Shown here piece after piece: positions 17,583-47,325 of a stretch of DNA of 64,000 bases. A program made the position numbers and the translations under genes. A model generated the notes under the pieces. It saw only the letters and a list, made by a program, of their open reading frames with translations. It did not search any database and was not told where the DNA came from. The stretch is from assembly GCA_039566865.1 (NCBI GenBank), contig CM076955.1, positions 19,389,501 through 19,453,500 of the forward strand, in the 5' to 3' direction. This DNA comes from Aurelia coerulea. Its lineage: Eukaryota > Cnidaria > Scyphozoa > Semaeostomeae > Ulmaridae. How positions within the stretch are numbered: the stretch's first letter is position 1; every line of letters starts with the position of its first letter.

Positions 17583-17624
17583 GATATTTCAATGAAAGGG
17601 CGAAATTTGCGAGCTGAAAGATCA

Positions 17625-24094: not shown

Positions 24095-25220
24095 TCATGA
24101 AAGGTATTCTAAAACATCGAGTCGCTTCATGCCTTCAAAAATCGTTCTCAGGTATTCAATTGAACATTTCTCTGGGAAACTTGATTCGAGGATTTGCAAG
24201 ACCTAAAATGGAATATCATTAACAATTAATGGTGGAGCAAATTTACAAAAAAGGAAGTGAAAGTTTATTGCATAAAGGAATAAATAATAAAAATAGATAG
24301 ATAAAATTAATTAATCAAATAAATAAAAACAGAATTATAAAAATTAAAATAGTTTGACTTTAATAGCAATTTTCTAAATTTGTTTTTGCTCATTGTTATG
24401 AGAAGGATAAAATCACATCTATCCCAAAAACATTGCCGTAAGTTTGAAAATCTTTCAACTCGTATTAGAGAAGGCAAAATCTGTTTGAAAACTTCTTTCT
24501 CTGATATCAAAGGAATGCCGAATAATGTTTTCATTTTCGTTTAATAACACTTTTAAGAGCCTTTAGGTTCACAGTTTCGAGGAAACTTTCTGAAATTTGC
24601 GACTACGGTTCTTATTTGCAGGTTCTTATTATCTCTCCCATAGTTAGCGATAAAAAGGGAAATAGGTGAAGCTGCAATTTTTAGCGCCAAGCGCTGGGAT
24701 CGCAGAAGTAGACAAGACCTAGTCAATTCCAACACCCCTTAAGTAGGGATGTGCCGAATTCCGGGGTCTAATTTTTCAATCAACTTGGCTTGGTTCTGGT
24801 CAAGCTAAGGGTATACGTTATGCAAGGTTTGTCTTGTCTCAAATCTTAATCCTTTGTCTTATGAATTATGGCTCGGAGCCAGATCATTCATTCAAAAAAA
24901 GCTGTTTTAAAGAAAGCAGTCTTTCTTGACTGACGGGGTAACCGTGTTTAAAGAATTTAAAATGAATGAATGCATGAACGAATGAATATGCTTATAACTA
25001 AATAGCCGCAACTTACTTCTTCCGTGTAGGAATCACATTTTGAATTCTCAATGATTCGAATTTCTCTAACATCTACACCAATGGCAGCAGCCAGCGCTTT
25101 CCAGTTGTTTTTTAGCGGTGCAGGAAGGTCGAGATCCTGACAAAGATTTCGGCGGTCTAATGCGCTTATTCCGAGGGTGGAGTGCTTGGGTGATGGCTTT
25201 TGACAAAAGCAACCAGCAGA
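24095..25220 (-). CDS. Adaptor exons 8-9: death domain and C-terminus
   Basis: Exon 8 (25220-25017) encodes 68 residues including LDRRNLCQDLDLP, NNWKALAAAIGVDVREI and CDSYTEE. Exon 9 (24202-24095) encodes VLQILESSFPEKCSIEYLRT, then IFEGMKRLDVLEYLS and the stop. This has the six-helix death-domain layout: helix 1 with RRNLC, the invariant Trp followed by LAAAIGV, a middle helix, VLQILES in place of the usual LL-x-x-W, and a closing L-x-x-hydrophobic helix. The match is closest in style to the UNC5 death domain, which also ends the protein. The protein ends just past helix 6, as in UNC5. Confidence 0.83.
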
Positions 25221-28200
25221 CTGCAAAAACGAATTAAAATTTAATCAAACAGAAAAACAGAAATATAAATGGGTGTTAAAGCACGGGCAGCGTCAAGATC
25301 AACTGTTGGCCTATAGGTAGGCCTATCTTAGTTTTGTCCGTTACGGCCTAATGCCCAAAATTCAACAACCTTCGCAACATACCTCCAGTTTTTTGTTGAC
25401 CAAAGCATGCTTAGCATCAATTAAATGTTGAAAGCACCATGTTTGTTCTTCATCTGTGTTCACCTGCTCTCGTATTATCGAAATTGTCAAGTCACACTGC
25501 AAGCGATCCAGCAACCCGCCATCACTCCTTAGGCCTCTGGCCTAGCTTGCAGTGTGACTTGACAGTTTCGATCACACGAGAGCAGATGAACACAGAAGAA
25601 GAACAAACATGGTGCTTTGAACATTTAATTGATGCTAGGCATGCTTTAGTCAACAAAGGACTGGAGGTATAAGTTTAAAGGCAGAAACACCGCAATGCGA
25701 CAAAGAACAACAGCAAATATGATAGAATTTATTTTATGCCAATATTTCGTCCTGGCATGCAGGACTTCTTCAGGGCTGTAATGTGAGGTATGTTGCAAAG
25801 GTTGTTGCTTTTTGGGCAGTAGGCCATAACGGACAAAAACCAAGATAGGCCTACCAATAGGCCAACAGTTGATCTTCAATTTGCCCGTGGTTAAAGGTAT
25901 GGTCACCAAAGCTTGGTTTATATCACCAGGTGAGCCAGAAAGAGTTCCCACATTCAAAAATTCATGGCACCAAGAGTACTATGATTCAAATCTCAGATAA
26001 AAGTCGAAAGACCAAAGAATCTTTGCGATTTTTCACTGATTTTTCACGAGTTTTTATGAGCGCTGGATATACAGGTCAACTCAACTTTACAGAACCTTCT
26101 CGGTGGTGATGTGCCTAAAAATGGGGCTAGGGTTGGTCCATAGTATTTTCAAACAAATACTGAAGATTTACAATCCAACAGCAATAAATGTGCAGAAGAT
26201 ATCTCTCACCCATGAAAATTTGTACTTTCTTTATTGTTTTTTACAATGAGCTTCTTTATGATTTGATCTTTGTCATATTCCACGAAAAATTTACAATACA
26301 TGTTACGGATTACTCTACCTACAAACCACTTTACAATACAACAAGGACGATACCATGAGGAGCAAAAAAGACTATGACTACCCCGTGGCATTATTAAGAA
26401 GAAGCTAAACAACATACAACTTTACATACATGCTACGAACTATTAAAAAAGAAAATGATAAATACTGAAATACTGAAATACTGTACTGGAGTCTATCTAA
26501 CATTACATGTCAGGTTGGGGCTGTAATAACCCAAAAAATGTCAAGAGCAAAACTCTTCTGTTCATTTTATTTGGATAACATACTTCACATCTAATGTGAG
26601 ACAGAATTTACAAACAAAAACAAAATTTACTGTAGATTCTCGGAGAGGGAAACTCCCTCTAAAGCATTCTTCTTCCGTTTCTTAACTTTTCTGGGCGACA
26701 TTCTGAGGTCAGAGCCTGGACAATCTGTTCCCTGCTCCCTTTCTGGGCAGACTATTTTTAGAAACAAGCGGTCGAGTTTAATTCGAAAGGTTCAAAAATG
26801 CAACGAGAGTTGATATGGATATCAATCATACCTCAGATCTTGAGAAGTTCTTCACAATCGAAATTTGTTGCGATGTGAAAGCTGAATTCTCGATGAATCT
26901 ATTCTGCAATGTTGGTGCAATGCATAAATCACATTTAAACATGTGCGCATTCTCATTGTTATGCAAGAACTGGAATTCAGTAACGATCCATTTTGATGGG
27001 CCTAATTTCTTCAGATCTGAGAATCTGAGAACCTGCAAGAAAGTAAAGTGTATCGATAAATCAGAAAACAGAGGATTTGCGATGATATGAATATAACAAA
27101 GGCAGATTTTGTAATACAATAGCAACAGTTGCGTTTGATTGACACCTCCATTCAAAGCGATTAGCAACTGCAGACAAAAGAAATTCTCTCAACCAGTAAT
27201 TCGAAACAAACAAAGCCGCTCAATTTTCCCCGAAATTAGTAGGGCAAACTCTCTCTCCTTGTGCAAGCGAAAGGTGGTTTGTAAGAGAAGTTATGTGCTA
27301 ATAACGAAAGAAGAAGGGTAAATCTAAAGTTCTGTTTGGCGGATTTTGTTTATTTGATTTAGAAGCCGAGCAGAAGGCATTGTAATTCTCGCGTATTTGG
27401 GGCTTAAATGAGACGATTACAAAACAGCTTCTGGATCAAATAAACAAAATCCGCCTAACGGAACTATAGATGTACACTTCTTCTTTCGTTATAAGCACAT
27501 AACTTCTCTTAAAACCACTTTTTGCTTGCACAAGGCGAGAGTTTGCCCTATCGAGCAAACTTTTGCGGCTTTGTTTGTTTTGCATTACTGGTTGAGACAA
27601 ATGAAATTCCCAAGAAACTAAGAAACATAAGAAACTAAACAGCCTGATTCAAAATTTTGAGTTTCTTGTATGCGGAGACGTACTGATTCACTTCTTATCA
27701 ATTATTTATTACTTACATGTGAGTTTTGGCTGATGACTTCAAATCCTTGACTGCATCCCTTGACACAAATTTCAATGTCCGAATTTGCATCCATCGATCT
27801 TGTTGCGTTCGTCATTTGACGTCTACCAAATTCGCCTTCGAGTTTACTCAATATCTGTGGACAAAAAAGTGTAGTTGCTTTCCTGCTTTCTTTGACAAAG
27901 CTGACAAACAAGGGCATACACAATAGAAACAGTTGCGTTTGATTGACAAAGCGATTAGCAACGAAATAAAAAGGGTAAATCTAAAGTTCTGTTTGGTGGA
28001 TTTTGTTTATTTGATTCAGAAGCGGAGCAGAAGTTGTTCGGAAGACGAGCTCGCTTTGCCCAAGGAAACTTATGTGTTCCACCGTGCAGTGGGTTTAAGC
28101 GCATGCGCTCGTCAGAGCTTCGACCCTAAAACGCTACTGCGCATGAGCTTTTACCTACTGCACGGGGGGGGGGGAACATGGGTTTCCTCGAGCAAAGCGT

Positions 28201-31200
28201 ATCTCGTCTCCCCAACAAGAAGGCATTGTAATTCTCGCGTATTTAGGGCTTAAATAAAACGATTACAAAACAGCTCCTGAATCAAATAAACAAATCCACC
28301 AAGGCGAGAGTTTACCCTGCTAGTTTCGGGGAAACTTTTGCGGCTTTGCTTGCTTTGAATTACTGGTTGAGGGAATTTCCCTTGTCTGCTGTCGCTAATT
28401 GCTTCGAATGGAGGTATCAATCAAACGCAACTGTTCCTATTGTAGTACAAAATCTGCCCTTGATAATGACGTCGTTGCAGAAATCAATGAAATTTGCAAA
28501 TCAAAGAATTTAGGTAGACTGATTGCAAGTTCGTAGTTATTGCTATTGATAGGCTGATGGACGCTATAACTACGACTCATGGACTTTCACATTGAAAATT
28601 GGGACGAAATCGTTTCCCTCGATTTCATGTGCGATATGGAAACCATAGCAAAGCTGTACGAAAAGGCGATAATGGCGGTGGGCCTAAATTGTCAGCTCAA
28701 TCGTCAGATAATAAAACGCCTCAAAATTCAAGTTTTGAGTGACGTTAGCAATGAACAAAAGCCACAAGTATTCGCATGCAAGTTTCTTTAATCTAAGAAC
28801 TAACAAACCTTTCAGTTTCAACAAGAATTTCCTCATTTTGAAGGCAATCTTCATCTAGCAATAGTGCACGCCAACACTCACAGCTCCTGAAATTCTCCAA
28901 CTACTGAAAAGAGGCCATTAACCTCGTTTCAAAGGGCACAGAAAAATCTGTGCGCCCATTGTTTATTTTCGTCCCACTTTTTTATGTGAAAGTCCATAAG
29001 TCCCAGTTTGAGCAAAAATATATATTGTTGTTGTTGTTATCATTGCTGTTGCTGTTGTTGTTGCGATAACTGGGACTATTTCGTGAGTCTAGAACATAGG
29101 TAAGAAAGAAAATGAGGTCGAACAACATACCTTGAAAGTATCAGTGTCTTCTCTCTGTACGATAATAACACCCACAGTCCAAGCACCGCCACAAACAATT
29201 TCACCGGCAAACATTGCGACAAATAGCTCAACTGATTCCTGAAAAGAAATTAATCCAAGTTCTAACTAAGGGCGCCTACCTCGTAGGAAGTGTGTTTATT
29301 CCCAGCACTGTACCCGTGACCCAGTACACAGAGTAATTGGTGAGCTGTGACCCAGTCCTGTTAAGGATTTTCAAATTCTAACGACTGTTGGTATTAACCA
29401 ATCAAAAATCACGCTGTCTGGTTCCCTGTGGCAAACTCGTTCACAGCTGATCTCGTGTTACATCAACACCGGAATTTGAAACCACAAAGTTATTCATACG
29501 TCATCTTGACCTTGACAGGACTGACTCTGTGTACTGGGTCAAAGGACGCCAATTACTCTACAGTACTGGGAATAAATACACTTCCTACAAGTGTACAAGG
29601 TAGGCGCCCTTCTTCTAACGTTTGAAATTTGGAGCATGCTTGATTGGTACGAATTCTGAAAACGGTAGACCAAGGTCTCGGAAGGTCTGGTAGACTCGTC
29701 ACTCGGAATTTGTGTTTGATTCACTCCAAAATTCTCAAGACGGTGAGATTTTTAGATCTTGGAAATGTTTGAGATTTATAGGATTTAAACAATTTTTAGA
29801 TTTTCAAAAAATGGTCAAAAGATTTCATTCAGAACCAGTGGCGTCGTGGCCGGGGGGGCCAGGGGGGGCCATGGCCCCCCCTGTGAAAATGTTGTCGGAA
29901 AATTCGTCAGTTTTTCATCCTTGTCGGAAAAATCGAAAAAAATTGAATTAATCCATTTTCCTCACATAGCTACTTTATGGCAATCCAAATGTGTACATGA
30001 AATATCACTTTTTCGATCGCAAAACGTAGTTTTTGATGAAAAAGTAGGTTTTTCGGCAAAAAACTAGGTCCCTCGTTCGTTTTTCTGCAAAAATTCCTTT
30101 TTCAATCGAAAGAAGTGTGTTTTCTGTTGGAAAAATAGACACATAGGCGCAAAAAGTTTCGGACGAATAAATTTCAGAAAATGCTTTCGGTCAAAACATT
30201 CTTGGACTTTTCCCCCGAAAATTTGGTCGTTTTACCAACATTTTAGTGACTAAAAACGACAAATTTACAATTTATTTTGCACGTTTCATACTTAAAAAAT
30301 GTCATGCATTTATGGTGTGTGCACTAAGCTTTCAATGAGTTGCTCGTCAGAATTTGCACAAGTGAATATTGTTGAGGAAGGTGGAAATGATTACTAAGAT
30401 GGGATTACTTTTAGTTTCTGTGATTGGATGCTTATAGAAATGAAGATTTATATCAAGCTATCACGTTGTTATCTAAAATTTGAAAACGATCTATTTTTCA
30501 GTGCTTTTGAGGTCCTTTTTTTCGAAATTTCCCATCAAAAACAAATAGTAGATTCTTCAAAATAGGGGCGTTTTGCAACGATCTAAAGGGCGTGGTCACA
30601 GAAAATTTTCCCGGGGGCAAGCCCCCAGACCCCCAGTTTTCCTCCCTCCTTGCGCATCTAGCTTCAGCCTCACCTCCAACACCAATCAAGTCTCGACAAC
30701 AGCCTCACCTCCAACAAGAATCGCCTCTTAACAGGACTGCTGCGTCCCTTTGAAAAATTCTTCGCTATTATGGAACTTTTATATGACAAAAGTTCTGAGA
30801 CATTTTGCCACTTTTTATACGTTATATTCCTGCTTAATTTTTGTCGGAAAAATGTCTCTTTGTCGGAAAATTCTGACCCTTGGCCCCCCCTAAAATCATG
30901 CTCCCACGACGCCACTGTTCAGAACGTTGTGGGGGGGGGGGGGATCTTGAATTTGTGAGATTTTCTAAGATTTTTAGAATTTGCTTTTGGATTTTCAAGA
31001 CTGTATGAAGATTTTTGAGATTTCTAGATTTCAGGGATATTCATTTATCAATAAACAAAATGTTGTTTTTTTATTGCAGTTACCTCAGTTACGGGTGATT
31101 TACTGACCTATTTCTTTCCTTTCAGGTTTTAAGATTAACTCGTTTCTCTCTTGCAGGATTCAACAGTTTTCTCTCTAGTTACAGGTTTATTTTAGTTGCT

Positions 31201-34200
31201 GTTCTTTTACAGGAGTTAACGGTCTTCTTTCTACAGATTAGGGTGTTTTGTTGCGTTTATGGGATTAATACGATGAGTCCGTCATTTAAGGTTATTTTCA
31301 AATGTTGTACCACAAATCATTTGTTTACAATAAACAAAAAACAACTAACCTGTGAGCCACGTCTGCTTTCATCATTAAAATTCTCGTAACCATGTGCCAT
31401 TTTTTCAGCTGAAGGGGAATACGATCGCGAGGGGATTGAGGGTGGGAGGAGCTGCTCACTAGAATTTCTTTTTGCAGGAATCCAATTTTCCCAGCCTGCC
31501 ATTCGGCGGGTTGGTGACATCCTTGAAATATCTATCGCTGCTGCCTTAAGTGTACAGTCATTGGAAGCTTGGCTTGGAGCTGGACTCGAACGCAGACTTG
31601 ACATTTGGCTGAAGCTTCCATTTGAACTCTGACTTGTTCCACTAGAATTTCGTCTCAGTCTGCAAGGCATATTGTCAGTCGGGCAGTAGCTGGGTTCTTT
31701 CTTATTAACAAGAGTAACATTTTCAAAATGATCAGCCACAGGTTTCCACGAGGCGCCTCTAGAAACAATTTCAGGAGGGCTTTCGTCAGTCAATATAGAG
31801 TCTTTATCTAAAGAGTCATTTCGTTCTCCCTTTGAAAGAAACGGCGACTCAGGTACGTTGATGTATCTCCTTGAAGGTACAACCGTTGATGAAATGGTCG
31901 GGAAACTATTTGTAGGCTCATCATTTGAAACAGTTTGGGGACTATTTGTAGGCCTATTCCTTGAAACGGCTTGGCTACCAGTTGTATGTCTGCTGGCTGA
32001 TATAGTTAGAGTACCATGCATTTGCTGGTTACTTAATGGCAGCCGATACTCGGCTGCCTGTTTCATCTCCTCCTGAATCTTACCACAGTTTTGTGCTTGG
32101 CATGCAATCCTCGAAGAACATTTACAACTAGCCTCGTCTTCTTCTAAGTTTACATATGACGCTGAAGGAGTAGCTCCTCTAGATATGATCTCACCAACTC
32201 TCTCTCCTGCCTCGTTTAGCTGCGCTGCTGCTTCGTTTAGCTGCATTGCAGCCTCGTTCTGCTTTTTTACATCAACATTTTCATACCCCATAGTCGATGA
32301 TGATTGCTGGAGCTGTTCCGAATCAAACAGAGGCTCAGTTACTTTAACATAACTTGAAGCTTTCGTAAGTTCAGGAGAATCAAAAGACCTGCCAGTTCTT
32401 AGCGACTGAGTAGAATTCCTCCTTGCTTCATCCTCAGTACGTGTACTAGCATTGCTTACACTTCTTTTGTGTAACAATTCTCTATTTTCTCTAGCAATTT
32501 TATCATTGAGTAATTCAATAGGAACGTAAGAAGTGTTTTCCTTCGACGAAAAGCTGCCCCTTTCCTTATGCCATTGCCCGTTGACATATCTATACAAGCA
32601 AGGGGCATAAATTCGATCTTCCTTAGCAATAGTCTTGTTACTGCTCTTATTCGCGCTTGAGCAGTCAAATCTTTTGTCCTTAAGCTGTGAAGAGCAGTAC
32701 CTTGAAGGCCAAACCGATTCTGTTGCATCAGCAATCAACGGAGTGGGTTTAACTACATTTGCATATTGGCAGTCACTGTCTGTGTTTGAACTGCAAGCAA
32801 CCGGTTCTCGATTCACTTTCGTAGGCCGAATCTTCGTAAGGTTCTCAAAAGACAACAAACTCTTTCTAATAACATCCACATGTTGTGTTCTGAACACGAA
32901 TTCATCTTGACACGCACCATTCCTGCTCTTGACTACCACTCTGTGAGCGAGGCCATTCGCATCAGCGAAGCATTGTACGCGATTTTTTGTCGAACTTTTG
33001 CAATATATCATTTTGTAGTCTGCCAGTTGCATTTGTTTGGTCAGGCAAATATATTTTGCTGTAATATGCATCGTGGCTTGGCCCTTGAAATGGGCTGGTT
33101 GGGATATTTCCACATCACACGAGTATACTGCGGAGAGTAAAAAGGACATAGATTGGTAAAGGTGAAGGTATGGGGGACGAAGTTTAATGTGCCTAATACC
33201 AATAATATTGTGCATATAATATTGTATATTTGATTCACGAGCTGTTTTGTAATCGTCTCATTTCAGCCCCAAATACGCGAGAATTATAATGCCATCTGCT
33301 CGGCTTCTGAACAAAATCCGCCAGACAGAACTTTAGATTTACCCTTCTTTCGTTACAAGCACATAACTTCGCTTAAAAACCACCTTTCGCTTGCACAAGG
33401 CGCGAGTTTGCCCTACTAGCTTCGGTGAAACTTTGTTTGTTTTGAATTACTGGTTGAGAGAATTTCCTTTGTCTGCAGTCGCTAATCGCTTTGGATTGAG
33501 GTGTCAATCAAACGCTACTGTTGCTATTGTATCACAAAATTTGCCCTCGTTCATGTGGATGTCTAAGTCGTACGAAGATTTTAAAATATTCGTTTGGCAC
33601 AGAAGTGAAAACTTCGTTGAGCAACGGAAAAGTATTACTAAGTAGTTTTGTCTCACACCGGCTACAGCATAGACAGCATAAAAATGCACTGTATCCATTT
33701 TCTTTTCTTTATTTCTCGAGAAAGTCCACTCGGAAAATCTTAAAACGAGCTAAAATCTCAAGCACATGTCCGTAACATTTTTACTTTGCAGCAATGACTT
33801 GAAAATGCTTTTGTAAATGCTATCCTCTTGGGAGGATGAAAAAGTCTTCCCTCTTGTATGAAAGACTAATTCAGGGGGATTCCATTCTCTCAAGGGGACC
33901 AAATACATGAATACATATCAGTGTCATTACTTTTAGGAAGGAAAAGCAAGGAATTTTGCACTTCATTTTCATTCCGACTTTGCAAGCTTCGGAATGGGGC
34001 TTTCTGCAGAAAATCTCCCACATCCACGGGAAGGAATGACCGATTAAAGCTGGGTAAATTACTGAATCTAATTGACCATATCGGCAATGAAACAAGACAG
34101 TTTTCAATATTACTGCTTTGATATTTAGGGGGGGGGTGTAGTATTTTCAAGAACGTCGTCGTGCTTCGTGCATCATTTCTTTACTTCACTTGGCATCATC

Positions 34201-37200
34201 CAACACAATTTTCAATACATACATTTATAAACTCGTTTCTTCAATGAACTCACCTTTCAAATTTTCTCGCAACTTCTGTTCCCAAGCTAAGAAATCACAA
34301 TTTTCATCGAATGATAGTAGAAGTGTTGGATTATTCTCCTTCGTGATCTGCGCCGTAGGCTCTGGGATCTTTGCGATATATAGAGATTTCCAGGCACCTT
34401 TTGGCCTGTGACGCAATATAATTGCCATTCCAGGTTCTGGCAGTTTGTGTGTGCACACATCTTTTCGAGATGAAAGACATCTGACGGCATCTAATTGAAG
34501 AGATTAAAGTTTAGGTAAAGAGAAAAGAAAGGGTGTTTCCATTTCGAAACCAGGGCCCGGTTGTTCAAAACTGGTATTAGGCTACTACCGGATTAGGGCT
34601 ATGCAAATGGCTACAGAATAATGCAATGCCTTTAATCCAAGATTATCGCTAATCGTGGTTTGAACATCCCGGCCCAGAATGCTACATGGAGCAGCATGAC
34701 AATGGGAGGACACGGGGCGCAACATCATCATCATCGATTTATTTAACCTAGGCAATCATAAGGAAATATAGCTAAATTACAGCTAATTTAGGCCTACTTT
34801 ACAAAATTTACGATTCCTTAAAATAAATAAATTAAAAATGTACAATGTATATTTATAAGATTAAAGTAATCAGACCTTCCCAAAGAGGTCCAGAGCGACG
34901 ACAATCCCTCAGAAAGACGCCGGACGGTCACGCCACGCAAGGGAACCCCAGACGCATACACTAAGCTACAGCCGCCGCATGGGAAACGACCACGAAAACA
35001 TCGCACCCATCCCCAACCGGAGGGCACACTGAGGACCAGAAAGGCCTACAACACGAGAGATGTCCATGCTGGGGGGACTCTGGCACCTATGGGCCCATCA
35101 GCCGACACCGGACCTTCCCATATATAGATAGGGGAGTGGCGTTATGCCACCAAAATAGTCTCTGTGCATGCTTATAACTCTGCTCATGCTTGAGTAAAAA
35201 TCTAAATTATATTGAAGCGACCGAGCGTTTCCTATGAATAGAAAATATTCATTCACATTGCAGAGGTTGAAGTGATAGAAAAATATTACTTTAGTTGAAC
35301 CTTTCTACCAGTTTAACCTTTGGATCTATAGTTTCTGTTTTGGCCCGCAAAGGATCCTGGGTAACAATGGCTCTTTAATGACAACAAACAAATCTTAGCC
35401 AATTGTTTATGCATTAAAATTCGACATAACAAAGATGGAGTGGTAACGTCAGTTTCAACTTGAGCCCGTTTAGACTCGTTATCAGTCGTTTCCACTGGTG
35501 ATTTTTGGCCATTCAATCCCTGTCTTCGCCGTTTGAACGGTTTGAACTAGCGCCAAAAGGACAACACGTTGTTGTTGCAACCGAGTGAAAAGATATTTCC
35601 ACTAACGCACACGTGGATTTAAAGGGAATGTAAGCATATAAAAGTGGCTCAAGCCACTTGCGGTCAAATTCTAGCCTATCAGATACCAGGATTTCCTGTT
35701 GACGTAGATCAGCTATCCAAATCTCCTTGTACTTGGCGAGAAAGAAACTGAAATGTCAATAAAAGTTGGTTCCTCTATCATTAAAAGAGTAAAGAAGAAA
35801 AATTGTTGGGCGTTGTAATTGACCAAAAGCTAAATTTTAAGCAACACGTGAAAATGGTGTGCACAAAAGCAAGCCAGAAGCTACATGCTCTTGCAAGGGC
35901 CTCAGCGTATATGCCAGAAGAAAAAATTAAGGTTGTCATGAGGGCTTTCGTAATGTCACAGTTTAGCTACTGTCCATTGATATGGATGTTTCACGATTAA
36001 CTCTATTCACGAAAGAGCATTGCGAATAGCGTATCATGATCGGACCTCCAGTTTTGAAGAACTGTTAATTACAGACCAGTTGCTTGTCACTGAAATTTAC
36101 CGAACAAGAATGTATTTAAATCCTTGTTTTATGAGTGTAAATTTAGGTTATATTTAGGTTGATTATAATTATTACACATCTTTTGTATCGATAATGGTTG
36201 GCATTAATTAGCCTAGTGCTATATACCACGCCAACCTTAAAGAAATTAATTATTATTATTATTATTATTAAATATGGTGCGGCACGTGTATCGGCCAATT
36301 GTCTTTGTAAGGTTATTTTTATCAATGGCTTATATATGCTTAGATTCCCTTTAAAGATCCGTTTTAAAGTGGGTTATTTGGAACGTGACACACAAATGGA
36401 TATCTTTCAATCTGTTTTATATTAACCTGGGCTGTGTTACCCCTCTGAAGCATGTTGACATCGCTTCTGTTGGGTACAAATATTTTCTTTCCGGGAATGT
36501 ATGAAAAGGTGGAATGCCTCCAAACAGGAAAGTTTCCGTGGCCCACTGCAGAAATGAAGAAGAATGTGGTTAACTTTAAACTTGATAGGGAAAGCGTTTG
36601 TCAACACACCCTTTTGCGTCCAGGAAACGCTTTTTTATGCCCAGGAAACACCCTTATCTAAACTAAATCATCCAACAAATCTTCTTGTTGCGTGTAGTGC
36701 AATTGTACAATGATAAACAAGTAAATAAAGTAAAATATAAGCACTTTGATGCGATTATTTCAATTCGCACCAAAGTGCTTATATTTTACTTTATTTACTT
36801 GCAGGAACGCCGGAGAGGGGGGGGGGGCGCGGGGGGGCAAGCGCCCCTCCTGCCCTTTCCTAACGGGGGCAAGGGGGGCAAAAAGTGCCCTTTCAATGAA
36901 AAACAATAATTTATTCCCTTATCAGAAACACACCAGTAACGAAAAATGACTGGCAGTTGCAACTTCAAAATAAGCAATATGCGATTTTATGCGATTCGGA
37001 ATGAGGACATGTGGAGAAATAGCCGAAAAATTTTGTGAAAGAACATTATTAATGTTCGTTAAAACGTTTTTGATAGCATTTTAAGCCAATCTAAAGGGCG
37101 TGGTCACAAAAATTTTCCCGGGGGAGTACCCCCGGACCACCTAATTTTTAGGCTCGCTTCGCTCGCCTTCGGTCTCGATTGCCCTTACGTTCCTAGTCGC

Positions 37201-40200
37201 CCCCCTTGCCCTACCATCGCTCCGGCGTCCCTGTTTACTTGTAAATCATCCAACTGTCCAAAGCAGTTTCTCCACTGACTAGCAAGGGTGACTTATGTAA
37301 AATGAAGGATTATGTTTGAGACAGAGTGATTTGACAGCCTCGAGAATAGATTCCATATCTTCAATGCAGCTGACTACACTCATTTTTTTATAAGAAACTA
37401 AGGTCCGATGATATGATGGTAGGCAGTTTCTTAAATTTTTGGGGCATTTTACTAGTAAAAGTTTCTTGTGTGTTTCTTATACTGTTAATGCCGGAAGTGT
37501 AGAGTTCATTTTGTTTTGCCTAAAAGGCTCCCAAATTACTTAGTAAGATCTCAAAACAAGTAAATAACATAATTTGCACTCAAAATAATGTCCAAACGGT
37601 TGCTATAACTGTACACTGTCAAAGCATTTTTGATTGCGATAGGAAAATTAAAATTGTAAATTACAAAAGTTTCTTAGCTTTTTCAATTCAGGTAGGGTTG
37701 TTTCTTAACTTTCGAAAAATTGAGCCTACCGTTTCTTATAAGCAGTTTCTTATAAAAAGAAATTAGTGTATAATGTTTGCTTTCTCTGTTTATTTTATTT
37801 GCATTCTTTTGAACGACAAATCGTCTCTTCAGAAAGCTGAATCTTTCGTTTCACATAATTTTCCGTTGCTTAAGGAAATTCAATTATCTTCATAAATTTC
37901 ATAGAAGGATACAGGAAGCGAGTATCGTAGCTTCCATGGAACGGAATCCTGCTTCTGTGGAATTTCAAGGAAAAAATTTACTTCCAACAGTAAATAATGG
38001 CTGCGGTCACGTCACACTTAGCGTTTTTACCTCGTTGTATCTTTTCAAAGCAACGAGATAATTACTTGTTGGGGAGACGAGATACGCTTCGCCCGAGGAT
38101 TCAAAGCTCAACTGTGTCCATGTATGCTGACGATACCAGCCTTTCTTATCAATCTAAGGATTTGACTCAGCTGAATGAGGCCATGAATAATGATCTCAAG
38201 AGTCTTGAATCTTGGTTGAAGGGAAACAAAATATCGCTAAATGTCGCGAAAACTCATTCCATGCTCATTTGCTCCAAATCTAAACAGAATTTCCTAAAAC
38301 GATCCAATGGAAAATTGGATCTTAAAATTCAGGAAGACAGTTTAGAGGTAGTGGACAAGACAAAGTACCTTGGTGTACAAATTGATCAAAGCCTGGATTG
38401 GAAGGAACACATTAAATATGTCGCGTAGAAAGTTTCGAGGGCTATTGGTTTTCTGAAACATGCGAGGAGCCTCGTCCCTTCTACTTCCTTGATTAGTTTG
38501 TACAGAAGTATTGTGGAACCACATTTTCGTTATTGTTGCTCTGTTTGGGGCTGCTGTAGTTCCACAGAAAAAAGCCGCTTGCAGAAGCTACAAAACAGAG
38601 CTGCTAGAATAATCACTGGTAGTCGTTTTGATGCCTCCGCCATGCCCCTTATAAAAAGTCTTGGTTGGCAAACGATTGAGGAATTGATTGGTTCTGAGAC
38701 CAAAGTCATGGTGTTTAAGGCATTAAATGGTCTTGCTCCTCAATATTTGGCCGAACTTTTCTTGAAAAAGTCGCAGGGCTCCCTTCACACCCTCCGAAAT
38801 ACTTCTACTGACCTAAAGATACCATTAATGAAAAGTGGAAATGGTCAAAGATGTTTTTTCGTTCAGAGGAGTAAAATATTGGAACAGCCTCTTAGCTGAG
38901 TCGAAGCAAGCCGTAAAACTCAATATTTTTAAAGCAACAATTTAGGATATGTTTCTTTTTTGCACTTTTTGTTTTTTTTTCTTCTGTAAATTAGAACAAT
39001 TTTGTATTTTAGATTTTCATTTTGAAATCATATATTGTAATCATTTTAATAGTAGGTATATTCCATAAATTGTAAGATTTTTGACGGAGGGCCCCTTGCA
39101 AATCAGCCTTTGCTGAAGGGTTACCCTCCTATAAATAAATGAAATGAAAAAAAATGAAAAATGAATGAAATGAGGAAACCCATGCTTCCCCCCCGTGCAG
39201 TTGGTTAAAGCTCATGCGCAGTAGCGTTTTAGGATAGAAGCTCTGACGGGCGCATGCGCTTTAACCCACTGCACGGGGGGACACATAAGTTTCCTCGGAC
39301 AAAGCGATCTCGTCTCCCCAACAATTACGCTGTAATATGCGACCCCATTTTCAATTCACATACAATGCTGTTACGGGCTGTTACAGCGCTTTGGTCCCGA
39401 GAGCTGATTCCATAAGAAAACTATTAGATACAAAAACGACGGGGAAAACAAGATCCCAAGCTAAATTTTAGCGTTGTTTTGGAGAATAAATCAATCGTAG
39501 CCTTGTTTAGTTGTCACATGACTGTGTGACCGGGTGTCAATGTTCCGTTATATTGCTGTACTTTTTGGTAACAAAACAAATTGCCAGAAAGTGAAGCAAT
39601 TCTCATTACAACGGGAAAATTCAGTACAGTGTGACCGCAACCAATAGGTGTCCCTTAAAACAATCTCGGGGCTTGCACATCTTCACATTTTATCACTGCA
39701 TAATTCAAGCATCAAAACCCCGATCAAAACCAGTGCAGAGCCACGGGGGGCTTGGGCGCGACAAGTCCCCCACTTTCTTCTCTGAGATCAGTCTTGCAAT
39801 TAGTCTAAATCTATTCAGAACATGTCTAAGGCGGGGTTAGGTAGTTATATGCAGAGTTTTAAAGGGGCTCCGTCGTCAAAATGTAAACAAAACGATGATT
39901 TTTGACGTTTTTTGAAAGGTGATATCACAAAGGATTTTCGTATTTTTACAAAATGAAAGTTGCTATTTGGGCATTAATCATTGTACTTCACTATGGAACA
40001 AACCAAACATTCATATCTTCTACGATTGCTCGAATATAAGTGGATTTTTAACGGTCACTTTTTTGGTGGCTTGGGTGAAGCCACCAAACAAACTGCAGAG
40101 AACGATGGATGAACAATGGATAATCCCCGACACGTGCGAGTTTTCGGATTTGTTTACTGTTTGACGACGGAGCCCCTTTAAAAGACAAATAAGAATGTTT

Positions 40201-43200
40201 TCTGAGTGTAAAAAGGCGTTTCCTGAATATAAAAAGGGCGTGGTACTGAACTTTTTTCTAGGGAGCTGTGCCCCCAGACCCAATCTGCCTTTATCAAGGT
40301 TAGTATTTATAGCAAAATTTAAGCAAAGAGAAGAAACTCACATCTATGGCTGTCAATGTTGATCAAAATGCCTCGTTTCTCTTTGGGTTTTGCTTCAAAT
40401 GGCCACCATTTCACCTAGGGGGAGGAACGCCAGTAATAATTCTTCAGAAATTAAAAACAATCTTGAATGTAAAATAACCATAGCTGATGTTGCTGTTGTT
40501 ATGCATTCTGAAATGCTCAGGTAACTATGGAAACAGATCAAGCATGCGCGAGACGTTTGATTTGCTGCCAGTCTTCGTTCGGTTTCGATTCGGAACCACG
40601 ACAATGCGAATCGAAACCAAACGAAGACTTTGTAACAAGTCAAGTTTGAAGTCCGCGCCAGTTTTATGAACGTCCATTTGAATGGACGCGAGGTAATTAA
40701 GTGTTAACCCTTTACTACCTGGTGTCAGACAAAGTAGGTGAACAGACACATACTGCTTTGTTGGGGAGACGAGATACGCTTCGCCCGAGGAAACGCATGC
40801 TTCCCCCGTGCAGTAGGTTAAAGCTCATGCGCATTAGCGTTTTGGGGTTGAAGCTCTAACGAGCGCATGCGCTTTAACCCACTGCACGGGGGGCACATAG
40901 ATTTACTCGGACAAAGCGATCTCGTCTCCCCAACAATGCTTTTCTGCCATCTTAACAACTGGCTAGGGATGATCAAAGGGATTACACTTGAAAAAAGAAG
41001 GCTCGTTATTCTGCGAATCTTAGAGATAAATTCGAGATTAAAGGTGCTATTAGTGAAAGAATACGGTTTCCTGGCAATTTTTGAAATGCCAAGGCCGTTT
41101 ACCCCTCGCAAAACGGAGTTACGGCCCAAAATGGGGTAGGCCGAAATTTTCCTCATTTTCGCGGCCCCTGCGCTCTGCCTCTGGGGGCAATATTGAACCC
41201 CAAATTGTGTGCTTAGACTCGCAAGCGAGTTATCTCTAGTAAATTTTTTTCTGTTTCAAAATTTGTTGAGTAATAATCGAGCATCGGCTCCAAATGCAGC
41301 CTCGGGTCAGAAAATTGGGCCAGGTCGGCGCCGCCGTTCATACTGTAATGGAGAGGACTCCCCGGATTTCCGACTGTTACTAGGGCTGTCGGAATTGGCC
41401 GCGCTCGCGCCAATCCCTTTTTCTTTATTGGATAAAAGGGGGATGCTTGAATCACCTGCACTTATGAAACCTATTCTTATCTACACTCCAACTGCAAGGC
41501 TGTCCTGAGACCATGTGTCCTGAGCTTGTGGTTTGTTCACGATGGCTGACTCTACAATAATTCTCTAACACCTCATGCACAGTACCCTGGACAAATGAGA
41601 CGAAGAGACCATGACACCAACGGCGTGACAAGGGTAAATTAAGTGGGGGGAATCTAAAAGAGGGGGTCTTGGGGCGAAGCCCCAGGACAATTTTTGGGGC
41701 CACGCCCTTTACTTTGGCTTAGAATGCATCTCTCATGCTTGCCATTAGCTACAAGAGAACTTTGATAGTTTTGTGAACAGTTATCCTATGAATCAGAGCG
41801 CGAGGAAAATTTTTGAAGAAAGATCCTTTACTTTGGCTTAGAATGCATCTCCCAATATCATGCTTGCCAGTGCTAAAATGGAAGATTTAACATTTCTCCG
41901 AAAATTCTTACCCAACCTATACCCAGCTATTTTCTCTTCGGTTTTAAAGGAATCTCGAAGACCATCTTTCGACAATAGGGGGGGGGGGGCAATTGCCTAA
42001 ATCGAGTGTTCATTTTCTTTTTGAATTCAAATTTGTAAACTGATGATTTCTTGAAACTTTAAAAATCTGTATCTTGGCTCTCGTAGGTCCGATTTTAATA
42101 ATTCTTCTTTTTGAGAACTTTCATTTTTCGGCATTTATTACATTTGCTGGATCACTGTGAAATGGTGAAGCATTATGTCAAATCATGGTCAAATTGTAAA
42201 ACATGACTATCCCTGTAATTGCAAGGCATTGCTGACAAACCTGCTAACACACAATTTAATTGAACATTGAACAGACATTTTCATAAAGATTTCTGTCAAA
42301 ACACAGTCCTGCTTCTTAAGTGTCCATCATGGTTGCTTACGTTTTGTAGAATGACAAGGCCATTATTACATTTATACTTCCAATCATAAATTAACACAGA
42401 GCTTCCTGGAGATAACTCACAAATCATTAAGGGATCCCTTTGTTACACTTTCTTAATGAATTTGGGTGCTTGTTCGTAACTATGTGAAGTTTTAGATATT
42501 ATTTTTAGATATTGATTTTAATTGTACAGTGTACTTTGCACTAATGCTGGTAGCTCTGGTTTTGCCCTGACAGCAAAATTGAAGTTTGTTGATTTTTAAC
42601 TCTTCAATTAAGTCACCAAAAATTCTGAAAAATATATCAAAATTTAATCTAATGGTACTTAAAGGCATTGAGTCCATGTAAATAGCTGAGCGTTAACGCT
42701 ATCCTGAATTTTGCTGACAAACTGCTGATGGCCCTTTGTTATTGCATAATAGTGTTAAAGCCATTCGCAGTGGAGACCAAAGGTTTCTTAATCCTTGCAT
42801 TATCCTCGGGAATTTCTTTGGTTTAATTAGCGATTAAATCACAACTTTTGTTTTGTGATTGAAAAGAAGTTGATATTGGTCATCAGCACGCTATTTATGC
42901 GGACTCAGTGCCTTTAAGATGTCTGAGAAGACAATAAGAAACTTTTGAAATTTAAATCAAAGGATGTATTGCAAATAAGTCATTGAATCTTTATTCTTGA
43001 CCAAGTAAATAATTGTTTCATTTTTTGAGTGTGATTGAACTCTGTTTATTCCTATATGATGCTATAAATGTCAATACAATCTGTAGCAGAGACTACATGT
43101 ACATGAATTTAGGAAATGAGAAACAAATCAATGCAAAAAACCTTTCATGTTGAATTAAGGAACTTTACTGTACTAATGGCCTGATCCAAGTTTCTTGCAT

Positions 43201-45061
43201 AAAAAGTATCTAAAAAATTCTGTAAATAATGTCCAGCAGCACATTGGGGGATTGGGGATTAAAGAATAAAACAGCTTATGACAAGTGAAAGAAGTGATTT
43301 TCCAAAGCACAGGTGGGCAGCATGGTACAATGCGTTTCTGGTGTCATCCCCTTTTGTTTGTAAGAGGCTCTAGACCCTCCCATTCAACTGGTACTTTTTA
43401 TAGGTTTTGATCCATGGTTGATTCTTTTTTCCTTGGCAACAGCAAACATAAACAAGCACTTGTTTATTCTTTTCCTTAGAAAATTGTATTGCATGGAGTT
43501 TAAATTTTGTGCCGGCTCTTTGTTTGGTCTTAGAAGCTATATGATGGAGAAATTTCCAGCTTTTTCATTCGAAACTGATTATTTACCAATTTGGCATCTA
43601 AGATATTGTTGTTGATTTTCACAATGACAGGTAAATTTAGGCACAAGAGTTTTTTTTGCGTTTCTGAAGCTGTGGAACTTTTCTACCCCCACAGTGGATG
43701 TGGAAAGCAAGCATGGCCTGGTAAAAAATACTTGGTACAAAAAGATAAACATGTATTATTGGGATTCCAGTTCTAGAACTTGCAAAAAGCTTCTCATACT
43801 GGAAGAAAATTACTCCCATGCAACTCGACCCTCCCATGCAACAACTTTCTCTAAGGAAAAGAAGTTTGAAGGTGTTGTGGCGCAGTGGTTTAACCTCTGA
43901 CTTTGCAGCCAGATTAGTCAGGCGGAGTGGGTTCGATACCCGGTAGGAGCCCACCACTTGAGCGTCATGACAAGGGGTCGCAGACTCGATTAGGTCTGCT
44001 CTATTTCTGCGATCCCAACGCTTGGCACTGAAAAACACAACTTCACCTTCACCTTCAGTTTAAATTTTGTGCCTGGCACTTTTTATAGGTTTTGATCCAC
44101 ATTGATTCTTGCTTCCTTGGCAACAGCAAACATAAACAAGTGCTTGTTTATTCTTTTCCTTAGAAAATTGTATTGCATGGAGTTTAAATTTTGTGCCGGC
44201 TCTTTGTTTGGTCTTAGAAGCTCAATGATGGAGAAATTTCCAGCTTTTTCATTCGAAACTGATTATTTACCAATTTGGCATCTAAAATATTGTTGTTGAT
44301 TTTCACAATGACAGGTAAATTTAGGCACAAGAGTTTTTTTTAGCATTTCTGAAGCTGTGGAAATGTTCTACCCCCACAGTGGATGTGGAAAGCAAGCATG
44401 GCCTGGTAAAAAAATACTTGGCACAAAAAGATCAATATGTTCTAGAACTGGCAAAAAGCTTCTCATACTAGAAGAAAATTACTCCCATGCAACTCGACCC
44501 TCCCATGCAATGACATTCTCTTAGGAAAAGAAGTTTAAATTTTGTGCCTGGCACTTTTTATAGGTTTTGAACCAGGTTGATTCTTGCTTCCTTCGCAACA
44601 GCAAACATAAACAAGTGCTTTTTTATTCTTTTCCTTAGAAAATTGTATTACATGGACTTTAAATCTTGTGCCGGCTCTTTGTTTGGTCTTAGAAGCTCAA
44701 TGATGGAGAAATTTCCAGCTTTTTCAGCTGTATTATTGATTGGGATGGTGGCATCCCACCCAGTTCTAGAACTGGCAAAAAGCTTCTCAAACTAAAAAAA
44801 ACTACTCATGGAACGGCAAAGGTGATATCTACACCGTTTAAGACCGTTAGACAGTTACAGGACAGAGACAATGTCAACACTTGAATCAAATTGACAAACA
44901 AAGCGAAAATATTTTTTATCGAGGGCGACAAAAGAGCAATTTATAGTTAGGCCCTGAATAGGATGGTTGGCCCTCACCTTTCTCTGGCAACTGCTGGTAT
45001 CACCTTCAGCTCTGTGAACCAAGACCGCTTCCAAAATGATCTTCTCTCTATTTTCCGTCAT
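24095..45061 (-). CDS. DOK-like PH-PTB adaptor with UPA and death domain
   Basis: Nine exons: 45061-44978, 40414-40342, 34490-34254, 33127-31350, 29238-29131, 27854-27717, 27032-26832, 25220-25017 and 24202-24095 (stop TGA at 24095-24097). Lengths and phases (0, 1, 1, then 0 throughout) fit without adjustment and give 976 residues. Order of parts: PH-like region (about 1-131), IRS-type PTB (132 to about 232), a Ser/Asn-rich linker with six Tyr-x-Asn motifs (to 724), UPA (725-873), death domain (about 893-976). DOK, IRS and FRS2 proteins use PH and PTB modules to dock at receptor tyrosine kinases. UPA and death domains form the cytoplasmic end of UNC5 and part of PIDD1 and ankyrins. No signal peptide or membrane helix is seen, so a cytosolic adaptor is likely. 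Exons 3-9 are firm. Exons 1 and 2 rest on splice sites, phase and PH-like pattern. A split into two neighbouring genes is possible but nothing in the sequence calls for it. Confidence 0.8.
25286..25890. repeat. Large imperfect hairpin in adaptor intron 7
   Basis: The arms run 25286-25515 and 25540-25890 and pair almost throughout (for example GTCAAGTCACACTGCAAGC with GCTTGCAGTGTGACTTGAC). The right arm carries an extra segment of about 120 bp (25672-25792) bounded by GAGGTAT on both sides. Part of that insert (GGCAGAAACACCGCAAT) also occurs near 6580. Confidence 0.75.
26832..29238 (-). CDS. Adaptor exons 5-7: UPA domain
   Basis: Exons 29238-29131 (36 codons), 27854-27717 (46 codons) and 27032-26832 (67 codons) are all phase 0 at both ends. 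Read together they follow the UPA domain of UNC5-type receptors: a VELFVAMFAGEI strand, a second strand and turn (WTVGVIIVQREDTDTF), an LEGEFG turn, a strand pair around SDIEICVKGC, and a late strand with FKCDLCIAP. In the known families UPA follows a ZU5 domain. Here exon 4 joins exon 5 in phase with no ZU5-like exon seen between 29239 and 31349; that intron holds only repeats. UPA packs against ZU5 and the death domain in the closed form of UNC5. Confidence 0.75.
27112..27612. mobile_element. Palindromic MITE, CAACAGTTGCGTTTGATTGA family, copy 1
   Basis: Near-complete palindrome of about 500 bp in adaptor intron 6. Centre near 27360 with mirrored TTTGTTTATTTGAT / ATCAAATAAACAAA. Confidence 0.7.
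27922..28447. mobile_element. Palindromic MITE, CAACAGTTGCGTTTGATTGA family, copy 2
   Basis: A second palindrome in adaptor intron 5, interrupted at 28028-28218 by a GGGGAGACGAG-type foldback. A half copy lies at 33240-33532. Confidence 0.7.
28028..28218. mobile_element. Foldback element, GGGGAGACGAG family
   Basis: Inverted ends around GTGCAGTGGGTTTAAGCGCA and TGCGCATGAGCTTTTACCTA; it ends TCTCGTCTCCCCAACA. Other copies at 38067-39323 (split) and 40761-40936. Confidence 0.7.
28515..29091. mobile_element. TAGACT MITE, longer copy
   Basis: TAGACTGATTGCAAGTTCGT at the left and TTTCGTGAGTCTA at the right. The 70-codon open frame at 28579-28791 is inside it and has no recognisable domain. Adaptor intron 4. 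Confidence 0.65.
29269..29612. mobile_element. Palindromic MITE, CCTACCTTGTAGGAA family
   Basis: Ends GGGCGCCTACCTCGTAGGAA and TACAAGGTAGGCGCCC. Adaptor intron 4. Confidence 0.75.
29836..30917. mobile_element. hAT-like non-autonomous element with 8-bp duplication
   Basis: Ends CAGTGGCGTCGTGG and CACGACGCCACTG, flanked by the direct repeat TTCAGAAC (29828-29835 and 30918-30925). CAG-start ends plus 8-bp duplications are typical of hAT. No transposase seen. Adaptor intron 4. Confidence 0.82.
31105..31300. repeat. Copy of the 7.6-8.4 kb repeat segment
   Basis: Shares CTTTCCTTTCAGGTTT, AAGATTAACTCGTTT and TACGATGAGTCCGT with 7628-8390. Ends about 50 bp from the donor of adaptor exon 4. Confidence 0.65.
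31350..33127 (-). CDS. Adaptor exon 4: PTB domain and Tyr-x-Asn linker
   Basis: This single 1778-nt exon encodes residues 132-724. Residues 132 to about 232 match an IRS/DOK-type PTB: a VEISQPAHFKGQATMHIT opening, YICLT strand, RVVVKSRNG, EFVFRT, and a closing helix (VDVIRKSLLSF). Six Tyr-x-Asn motifs follow at Y253 (YANV), Y312 (YVNG), Y413 (YENV), Y456 (YVNL), Y553 (YINV) and Y712 (YENF); when phosphorylated, this is the consensus bound by the GRB2 SH2 domain. Other tyrosine motifs are Y332 (YVPI) and Y391 (YVKV). A seventh YENV-like site near residue 497 reads FENV. Two short internal copies, EIISRGA and EIVSRGA, suggest part of the linker arose by duplication. The linker is rich in Ser, Asn and Thr and is probably disordered. 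Confidence 0.85.
33240..33532. mobile_element. Half copy of the CAACAGTTGCGTTTGATTGA palindrome
   Basis: Contains GAATTACTGGTTGAGAGAAT and AGGTGTCAATCAAACGC, as at 28360-28430. Adaptor intron 3. Confidence 0.6.
34254..45061 (-). CDS. Adaptor exons 1-3, PH-like N-terminus
   Basis: Exon 1 (45061-44978) has an upstream in-frame TAA, an A at -3, and encodes MTENREKIILEAVLVHRAEG followed by DTSSCQRK up to GTGAGG. Exon 2 (40414-40342) follows a pyrimidine-rich CCCCCTAG acceptor and reads VKWWPFEAKPKEKRGILINI plus DSHR before GTGAGT. Exon 3 (34490-34254) ends with LLLSFDENCDFLAWEQKLRE and NLK. The pattern suits the second half of a PH domain: a VLV strand, a loop, an aromatic WW strand, a basic loop with KEKRG, later strands, and a C-terminal helix with the usual Trp. 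The first strand of a standard PH fold is not evident, so the domain may be shortened or an upstream exon may be missing. The introns are 4.6 and 5.9 kb and full of repeats. Confidence 0.62.
34690..35110 (-). mobile_element. Probable 3' end of a non-LTR retrotransposon
   Basis: A GC-rich block (34870-35110) stands out from its AT-rich surroundings. It ends on the minus strand in AT-rich sequence and a GATGATGATGATG tail, as LINE 3' ends often do. The open frame includes VRRLSEGLSSLWTSLGRSDY. No reverse transcriptase is seen, so the class is uncertain. Confidence 0.4.
35758..36170 (+). pseudogene. LINE reverse transcriptase C-terminal fragment
   Basis: Reads LLGVVIDQKLNFKQHVKMVC, ALARASAYMPEEKIKVVMRA and FSYCPLIWMFHD, then a frameshift and ERALRIAYHDRTSSFEELL. 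These are standard motifs following the RT domain of CR1/jockey-type elements. Short (TTA)n follows at 36246-36270. Confidence 0.8.
36718..36803. repeat. 30-bp-arm hairpin
   Basis: AAGTAAATAAAGTAAAATAT continuing to AAGCACTTTG pairs exactly with the right arm; the loop is about 23 bp. The right arm is the target of the adjoining hAT-like insertion. Confidence 0.8.
36802..37233. mobile_element. hAT-like element with 8-bp duplication
   Basis: Ends CAGGAACGCCGGAG and CTCCGGCGTCCCTG, flanked by TTTACTTG (36794-36801 and 37234-37241). 432 bp, G-rich interior, no coding capacity. Adaptor intron 2. Confidence 0.85.
37375..37770. mobile_element. TATAAGAAAC-family MITE
   Basis: TACACTCATTTTTTTATAAG to AAATTAGTGTA, flanked by TA; interior matches 21425-21795 inverted. 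Confidence 0.7.
38067..39323. mobile_element. GGGGAGACGAG foldback split by a LINE
   Basis: The left end (38067-38099, TTGGGGAGACGAGATACGC) and the rest (39171-39323) together match the intact copy at 40761-40936. The gap between is exactly the LINE at 38100-39170. Confidence 0.78.
38100..39170 (+). pseudogene. 5'-truncated CR1/L2-like LINE
   Basis: The frame opens with the RT catalytic motif MYADDTSLSY at about 38119. SLESWLKGNKISLNVAKTH, TKYLGVQIDQSLDWKEHI, an in-frame TAG near 38426, and RYCCSVWGCCSSTEKSRLQK follow. The 3' end carries a GGGTTACCCTCCTATAAATA block and a loose ATGAAATGAA tail. GAGGA flanks both sides, a short target duplication. Confidence 0.85.
39859..40182. mobile_element. 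TTAA-flanked MITE
   Basis: TTAAAGGGGCTCCGTCGTCA at the left mirrors TTGACGACGGAGCCCCTTTA at the right. TTAA duplication suggests piggyBac or Kolobok ancestry. It ends 160 bp from adaptor exon 2. Confidence 0.75.
40761..40936. mobile_element. GGGGAGACGAG foldback, intact copy
   Basis: A 176-bp palindrome running from TTGTTGGGGAGACGAGATAC to CGTCTCCCCAACA. Adaptor intron 1. Confidence 0.8.
41700..41880. repeat. Copies of the 123-bp tandem repeat
   Basis: CTTTACTTTGGCTTAGAATG and AGTTATCCTAT blocks, about 1.5 units, the same family as 62868-63400. Confidence 0.7.
41881..43389. other. Adaptor intron 1, no feature recognised
   Basis: AT-rich single-copy-looking sequence apart from a G-run at 41980. 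No exon with plausible splice sites found. Confidence 0.5.
43390..44800. repeat. Three tandem copies of a 475-bp unit
   Basis: ACTTTTTATAGGTTTTGATC occurs at 43393, 44078 and 44552. The first spacing is 685 because a SINE sits in copy 1; the second is 475. Copy 3 is truncated about 180 bp before the end of adaptor exon 1. The 60-70 codon frames inside are repeat sequence. Confidence 0.8.
43871..44056 (+). mobile_element. tRNA-derived SINE
   Basis: Pol III A box TGGCGCAGTGG (43878-43888) and B box GGTTCGATACC (43930-43940), a tRNA-unrelated body, and a (TTCACC)n tail. Flanked by AGTTTGAA (43863-43870) and AGTTTAAA (44057-44064). The TGC triplet in the anticodon position would fit tRNA-Ala origin. 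Confidence 0.85.
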
Positions 45062-46582: not shown

Positions 46583-46840
46583 AGGGCGCCTACCTTGTAG
46601 GAAGTGTGTTTATTCCCGGTACTGTACGCGTAGTAATTGGTGTCCTATGACCCGGTCCTGTTAATCTTTATTTTCAAATTCTAACGCCTGTTAGTGTTGA
46701 CCAATCAAAAATCACGCTGTCTGATTCCCTGTGGCCAGATCGTATGACAGTTGATCCTCGTGTTACATAAACACCGGAATTTGAAGCCACAAAGTTATTC
46801 ATACGTCATCTCGACCTTGAGAAGACTGACTCTGTGTACT
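46583..46840. mobile_element. Truncated CCTACCTTGTAGGAA-family MITE
   Basis: The left end GCGCCTACCTTGTAGGAAGT is intact; the right end is missing. It interrupts the LINE after its catalytic motif. Confidence 0.7.
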
Positions 46841-47325
46841 GATTTGGTATTATTTTCATAGAACGTCATACATATTGATTTATCATTATTAACTTGGAGT
46901 TTCCATTGGTCACAATTAGATAAGCTATTCAAGCATTGTTGTAGACCATCGTGAGAAGATGAGAGAATGATTAGGTCATCAGCATGGACGAGGCAAGTCA
47001 TAGGCTCATGCCCGAGGTCTAACGGTTACTAAGTTCATTAGCTAGATCATTTATATAAAGGTTAAAGAGTATTGGACTTAACGGGCATCCTTGCTGGACT
47101 CCTTTCTTTAGGGCATTTGAAGAAATTAGTACATTGGTTGTTATATTTGACTGCACAGTCTGATTTATCGTACATGCATTGGATAGTTTTCAAGATGTTG
47201 CCATTAATTCCGTAATTTTGAAGTTCTTGAAAGAGGCCACGGTGCCATACGCTATTACAAATTATATTGTTCTCTTTCAGAAATGATTTAAGTCGGTTAT
47301 TTAGAAGGAGGCAGAGGAGTTTTAG

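Follow-up and report, generated by a model that had tools for sequence, protein, structure and literature searches.

A predicted Aurelia coerulea protein joining a divergent DOK-like N-terminus to a C-terminal death domain

Results

A predicted nine-exon gene on the minus strand

The window analysed here, a stretch of 64,000 nucleotides of Aurelia coerulea DNA (assembly GCA_039566865.1, contig CM076955.1, positions 19,389,501 to 19,453,500), contains a predicted gene of nine exons on its minus strand, together with exons of a transporter gene and fragments of reverse transcriptase (Table 1). When joined, the nine exons give 2931 nt, which encode 976 amino acids followed by a TGA stop codon. 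The eight introns of the model are all of the GT-AG type with consistent phases, and the length of each of exons 5 to 9 is a multiple of three. The open frame that contains exon 4 is the window's longest, with 646 codons from stop to stop. An earlier sequence-only reading of this DNA had joined nine minus-strand exons in phase to a protein of 976 residues; our analysis confirms this structure, and the coordinates given at that time are exact.

Exon 2 was chosen by its splice sites and phase alone. A simple splice score places it second among 41 candidates and best of the three candidates of 73 bp; by a two-sequence PH profile that was itself poorly aligned, it ranks 126th among 295 candidates. 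Exon 1 is supported in the model by its reading frame and splicing, without comparative support.

Table 1 Features of the window and the residues that the predicted exons encode
Feature	Window position	Strand	Residues	Remark
Exon 1	44978..45061	minus	1-28	Start codon; first part of PH-like region
Exon 2 (73 bp)	40342..40414	minus	29-53	Least certain exon
Exon 3	34254..34490	minus	53-132	Remainder of PH-like region; followed by a phase-1 intron
Exon 4	31350..33127	minus	132-724	PTB-like domain (~132-232) and tyrosine-rich tail
Exon 5	29131..29238	minus	725-760	Start of the region earlier read as UPA
Exon 6	27717..27854	minus	761-806	Within region 725-873
Exon 7	26832..27032	minus	807-873	Within region 725-873; 94% identical in a relative
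Exon 8	25017..25220	minus	874-941	First part of death domain
Exon 9	24095..24202	minus	942-976 and stop	End of death domain
Possible polyadenylation signal AATAAA	24009..24014	minus		81 nt downstream of the stop codon; further copies in introns
Reverse transcriptase fragment	37994-38425	plus		Inside intron 2
Reverse transcriptase fragment	46795-47025	minus		Score below the Pfam cut-off
Repeated blocks	~43400-44800			In intron 1; near-identical, several hundred bases each (by eye)
Sulfate permease (SLC26-like) gene exons	13466-17588	minus		With STAS domain; adjoin the studied gene

A death domain at the C-terminus

As judged from its sequence, the predicted protein certainly ends in a death domain. 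The Pfam Death model (PF00531) scores 26.9 bits on the full protein and 32.2 bits on the C-terminal piece, for a cut-off of 22.6, and none of 1000 shuffles reaches the score of the alignment with the death domain of UNC5B. These profile and shuffle tests bear out the death domain that had been read from the letters. Compared with the death-domain exons listed for the same genome, the domain gives scores reached by at most 2 of 500 shuffles in 15 of 20 cases and fails in the remaining five; the closest of those listed lies on C2 and is also the one among them closest to UNC5B. A search of PDB chains ranks PIDD and UNC5H2 first or third, at E-values of 0.47 and 0.49, in the company of unrelated proteins such as glucose oxidase; with such high E-values and chance proteins alongside, we consider these matches weak. 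A search of the same genome (574 Mb, 294 contigs) with the C-terminal 252 residues returned the five exons of the window and one further match at E 7.4, on C14, which was judged from its reading frames to be due to chance.

The death domain studied here is interrupted by a phase-0 intron (window 25220-25017 / 24202-24095). Each of the 20 genomic death-domain matches listed lies in one open frame, and a search of this kind would overlook other death domains that are split.

The region between the tail and the death domain

Residues 725-873 had been named a UPA domain in the sequence-only reading, and this name did not survive our tests. The Pfam UPA model (PF17217) has no match in the 976-residue protein, with the control UNC5B scoring 199 bits, and neither local nor global nor profile comparisons of the region with the UPA of UNC5B rise above shuffles. 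By eye, the patterns EDT...LE...G and FxCxxC recall UNC5B, a resemblance that the statistical tests do not back. Across the whole of the same genome, the UPA model gives a single match, which is below the cut-off and contains stops. ZU5 gives seven matches, all on contigs other than that of the studied gene, and has no Pfam match in the studied protein. Since the UPA model is silent above its cut-off throughout the genome despite seven ZU5 matches, its failure here is not decisive, and the splitting of exons may hide any UPA. No convincing UPA exon emerged from the stretches examined around the ZU5 matches and 5' of two death-domain exons.

For want of a Pfam match and of similarity above shuffles, UPA is rejected for now as a proven domain. 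The label is best dropped for the present, and the claim suggested by the sequence becomes that of a fusion between a DOK-like protein and a death domain, in which region 725-873 appears constrained (94% identity in exon 7) and is of unproven identity. An AlphaFold model of exon 7 alone has a pLDDT of 48.6.

With regard to ZU5 in this genome, C17 carries two related frames, each a single exon, of 243 and 258 codons, which lie ~20 kb apart on opposite strands and share similar sequence around ZU5.

A divergent DOK-like N-terminus

The N-terminal part of the protein had been likened to the PH-PTB module of DOK adaptors. A profile built from four sequences, DOK7, DOK2 and the same-genome C10 and C12 genes, scores 13.2 bits against residues 1-241, a value reached by none of 2000 shuffles, the best of which scores 7.8; pieces of the tail and of the C-terminus, used as controls, are silent or ordinary. 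The match spans ~60 residues (103-164) across the junction of exons 3 and 4. Applied to separate parts, the same profile is matched by 7 of 2000 shuffles for the PTB alone and, weakly, by 62 of 2000 for the PH alone. A local alignment of residues 109-164 with DOK7, across the same junction, is equalled by 2 of 1000 shuffles, and neither a single-sequence DOK7 profile nor the comparison of the PTB with DOK5 is equalled by any of 1000. Against a six-sequence DOK/FRS profile the PTB ranks first among 2001, and hhalign gives the pair a probability of 8%.

Other searches were silent. The protein has no match to Pfam PH (PF00169) or IRS (PF02174), for which DOK7 as a control scores 23.5 bits, itself under the PH cut-off, and 31.0 bits, respectively; the IRS model has 14 matches in the same genome, none of them at the studied gene. 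NCBIfam returned nothing relevant for the protein, and PDB sequence searches with the N-terminus gave no match. There is no signal for the PTB against FRS3 (479 of 1000 shuffles) and none above shuffles for the PH against DOK2. Pairwise comparisons with the DOK genes of the same genome are equalled by 818 (C10) and 56 (C12) of 1000 shuffles, and those of the PTB with four same-genome PTBs and of the PH with two same-genome PHs fail. The AlphaFold model of the PTB piece shows strands followed by a long helix, which fits a PTB and carries no weight at a pLDDT of 37.5; with this model, Foldseek found no match at E ≤0.001. A global alignment of the PH-PTB part with DOK7 was equalled by 1, 4 and 0 of 1000 shuffles in three settings and was left uncounted, the printed alignment being out of register.

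The position of the intron before the PTB provides a separate line of comparison. In all five IRS genes examined, out of 14 matches (C12, C10, C6, C15 and a second C12 gene), a phase-1 acceptor lies just before PTB strand 1, as it does in exon 4; these sites were picked by hand from the DNA, without transcripts. In the DOK gene on C12, the split codon lies 10 residues past the last PH tryptophan, exactly as in the studied gene (the two contexts being WIETLRQNSS(A)RSFNV and WEQKLRENLK(V)YSCDV). In the alignment of the two, the introns interrupt the same residue. This C12 gene, within C12:14790001-14804000, is of the DOK type and has the PTB and a long tyrosine-rich tail on one exon, like the studied gene.

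Hence the earlier assignment holds in part. The DOK profiles, the DOK7 alignment and the intron before the PTB speak for it; the silence of Pfam PH and IRS and the absence of the RRYG motif speak against it. The sequence comparisons support an N-terminus that is related to DOK-type PH-PTB proteins and divergent from them.

The PTB pocket and the tyrosine-rich tail

The phosphotyrosine pocket of DOK/IRS-type PTB domains is marked by the RRYG motif and paired arginines. In the aligned PTB, KSST stands at the position of the DOK RRYG and R200 at that of the second arginine, and the motif with its paired pocket arginines is absent; with RRYG missing, the domain may not read phosphotyrosine.

The tail carries YxN motifs at residues 253, 312, 413, 456, 553 and 712 and a PxxPxR motif at 694. 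Six YxN motifs compare with 0.96 expected, and 6 of 20000 shuffles reach this count. Both the Y and the N are kept at six of six sites in both relatives found, as are 13 of the 14 tail tyrosines, in a tail that is identical at 328/472 and 339/483 positions (69-70%). The PTB-like part is identical at 98/109 and 64/71 positions. The SH2 domain of GRB2 prefers phosphorylated YxN, and these motifs suggest that GRB2-type SH2 adaptors may be recruited to the sites.

Relatives of exons 4 and 7

Two proteins of the protein database, P0002 and P0003, are related to exon 4 with 71% identity; P0001, also among the matches, is the reading of the window itself, and no exon 4 relatives beyond these two came from a profile search of the database. 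Exon 7 has one relative, P0004, with 94% identity over 67 residues and both exon borders conserved. None of these searches turned up a relative of exons 1-3, 5, 6, 8 and 9, which were not queried one by one against the protein database. The similarity of P0002 and of P0003 ends directly after ...RRGSQ, which is the predicted donor of exon 4. The contigs listed for P0002 and P0004 have the same length, 2,765,611 bases, which makes a shared contig in the second species very probable. The relatives of exons 4 and 7 thus probably lie on one contig, which is evidence of linkage and not proof of a single transcript.

Discussion

Proposed mechanism

We propose that the gene encodes one cytosolic docking protein of DOK-type PH-PTB descent which, with a death domain at its C-terminus, couples phosphotyrosine docking to death-fold assembly, and we give this reading slightly better than an even chance. 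The PH and PTB regions would place the protein at the membrane and in contact with a receptor or partner, and a tyrosine kinase would phosphorylate the six conserved YxN sites, which could then be bound by GRB2-type SH2 adaptors. Together with the death domain, the constrained region 725-873 would let clustered molecules engage death-domain partners, and phosphotyrosine docking would thereby be coupled directly to death-fold assembly. The output may be death, survival or immunity; both the output and the partners are ones that we infer. That a DOK-derived platform, phosphorylated by a kinase, nucleates the death-domain assembly, so that a natural single protein forms a direct phosphotyrosine-to-death-fold switch strongly constrained in at least two animal genomes, is a more tentative proposal, to which we give somewhat less than an even chance.

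The signal could also run in the opposite direction: the death domain would dock on a receptor or complex that contains death domains, after which the YxN tail would call in growth or survival signalling of the GRB2 type. The motifs do not set a direction, and a PTB without RRYG next to strictly kept YxN sites would suit such an arrangement; DOK-type PH-PTB modules, however, normally serve recruitment to kinases, and we regard the reversed direction as unlikely.

It is less likely still that the locus holds two genes, a DOK-like docking gene that would end shortly beyond exon 4 and a second gene, for the death domain, that would start near exon 5. Reading through the exon 4 donor adds ten further codons before a stop (window 31320-31349), the first two intronic copies of AATAAA, at 31191 and 31075, lie downstream of exon 4, and exon 5 contains an in-frame ATG. 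A shorter isoform with the docking tail and without the death domain could, moreover, coexist with the fusion. Against a division, the donor that follows RRGSQ marks the precise point at which both relatives cease to be similar, a pattern that splicing predicts and a conserved stop does not; exon 5 begins at a good acceptor and in phase; and the exon 4 and exon 7 relatives probably share a contig, though this speaks for linkage only. The sequence-only reading, in joining exons 4 and 5 in one gene, is thus backed by conserved exon ends and a probable common contig and is open to the objection that linkage leaves room for two genes; a single predicted gene is favoured.

That the N-terminus is not derived from DOK and resembles it by chance, the protein being a death-domain scaffold with a YxN tail, is the least probable reading and a distinctly improbable one: Pfam PH and IRS are silent, the profile match covers a short stretch and exon 2 is uncertain, but no shuffle reaches the four-sequence DOK profile score with its controls silent, the DOK5 and DOK7 comparisons beat shuffles, and the phase and position of the intron are independent evidence.

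Comparison with known systems

Docking adaptors and death-domain assemblies usually belong to separate pathways that are joined through several proteins. Searches of the open-access PMC literature, judged by titles and the opening of abstracts, listed no natural PTB-death or DOK-death protein, and a search by exact phrases returned no paper. PH-PTB proteins similar to Dok and IRS are already on record from cnidarians (PMC7260276), in an article whose consulted part contains no word beginning with "death", and an excerpt of another source records a separate coral IRS homologue (PMC10838073).

If the docking protein proposed here is real, the question of how growth-factor signalling became wired to cell death or immunity would be open to direct test, probably in a cnidarian. 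It would share with the DOK family (DOK7, DOK5, DOK2 and the C10 and C12 genes) the order of PH, PTB and tyrosine-rich tail, and with the C10 and C12 genes a single long exon, here exon 4, that encodes both PTB and tail. It differs from that family by its C-terminal death domain and by having neither a Pfam PH or IRS match nor the RRYG motif. The closest death domains tested are those of UNC5 and PIDD, of which UNC5B beats all shuffles; unlike these proteins, the studied one has no ZU5, no extracellular part and no LRR part, its UPA is unsupported, and it carries a DOK-like N-terminus instead.

According to the part of PMC7794386 consulted, UPA lowers the threshold for death-fold assembly in the UPA-CARD fragments of NLRP1 and CARD8. 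Were residues 725-873 a UPA, they could likewise lower such a threshold; NLRP1 and CARD8 differ, however, in their CARD and in the autoproteolysis of their FIIND, and UPA is unsupported in the studied protein. Adaptors have also been engineered in which a DED is combined with either a PTB or an SH2 domain so that kinase signals are turned towards apoptosis, as reported in the consulted portion of PMC2575513, and these chimeras embody the same idea of a phosphotyrosine module and a death-fold module in one adaptor. The Aurelia protein, if our reading is true, would be the natural counterpart of these phosphotyrosine-to-apoptosis adaptors: the chimeras are artificial and use a death effector domain, whereas the gene studied here is natural and would join a docking tail to a death domain.
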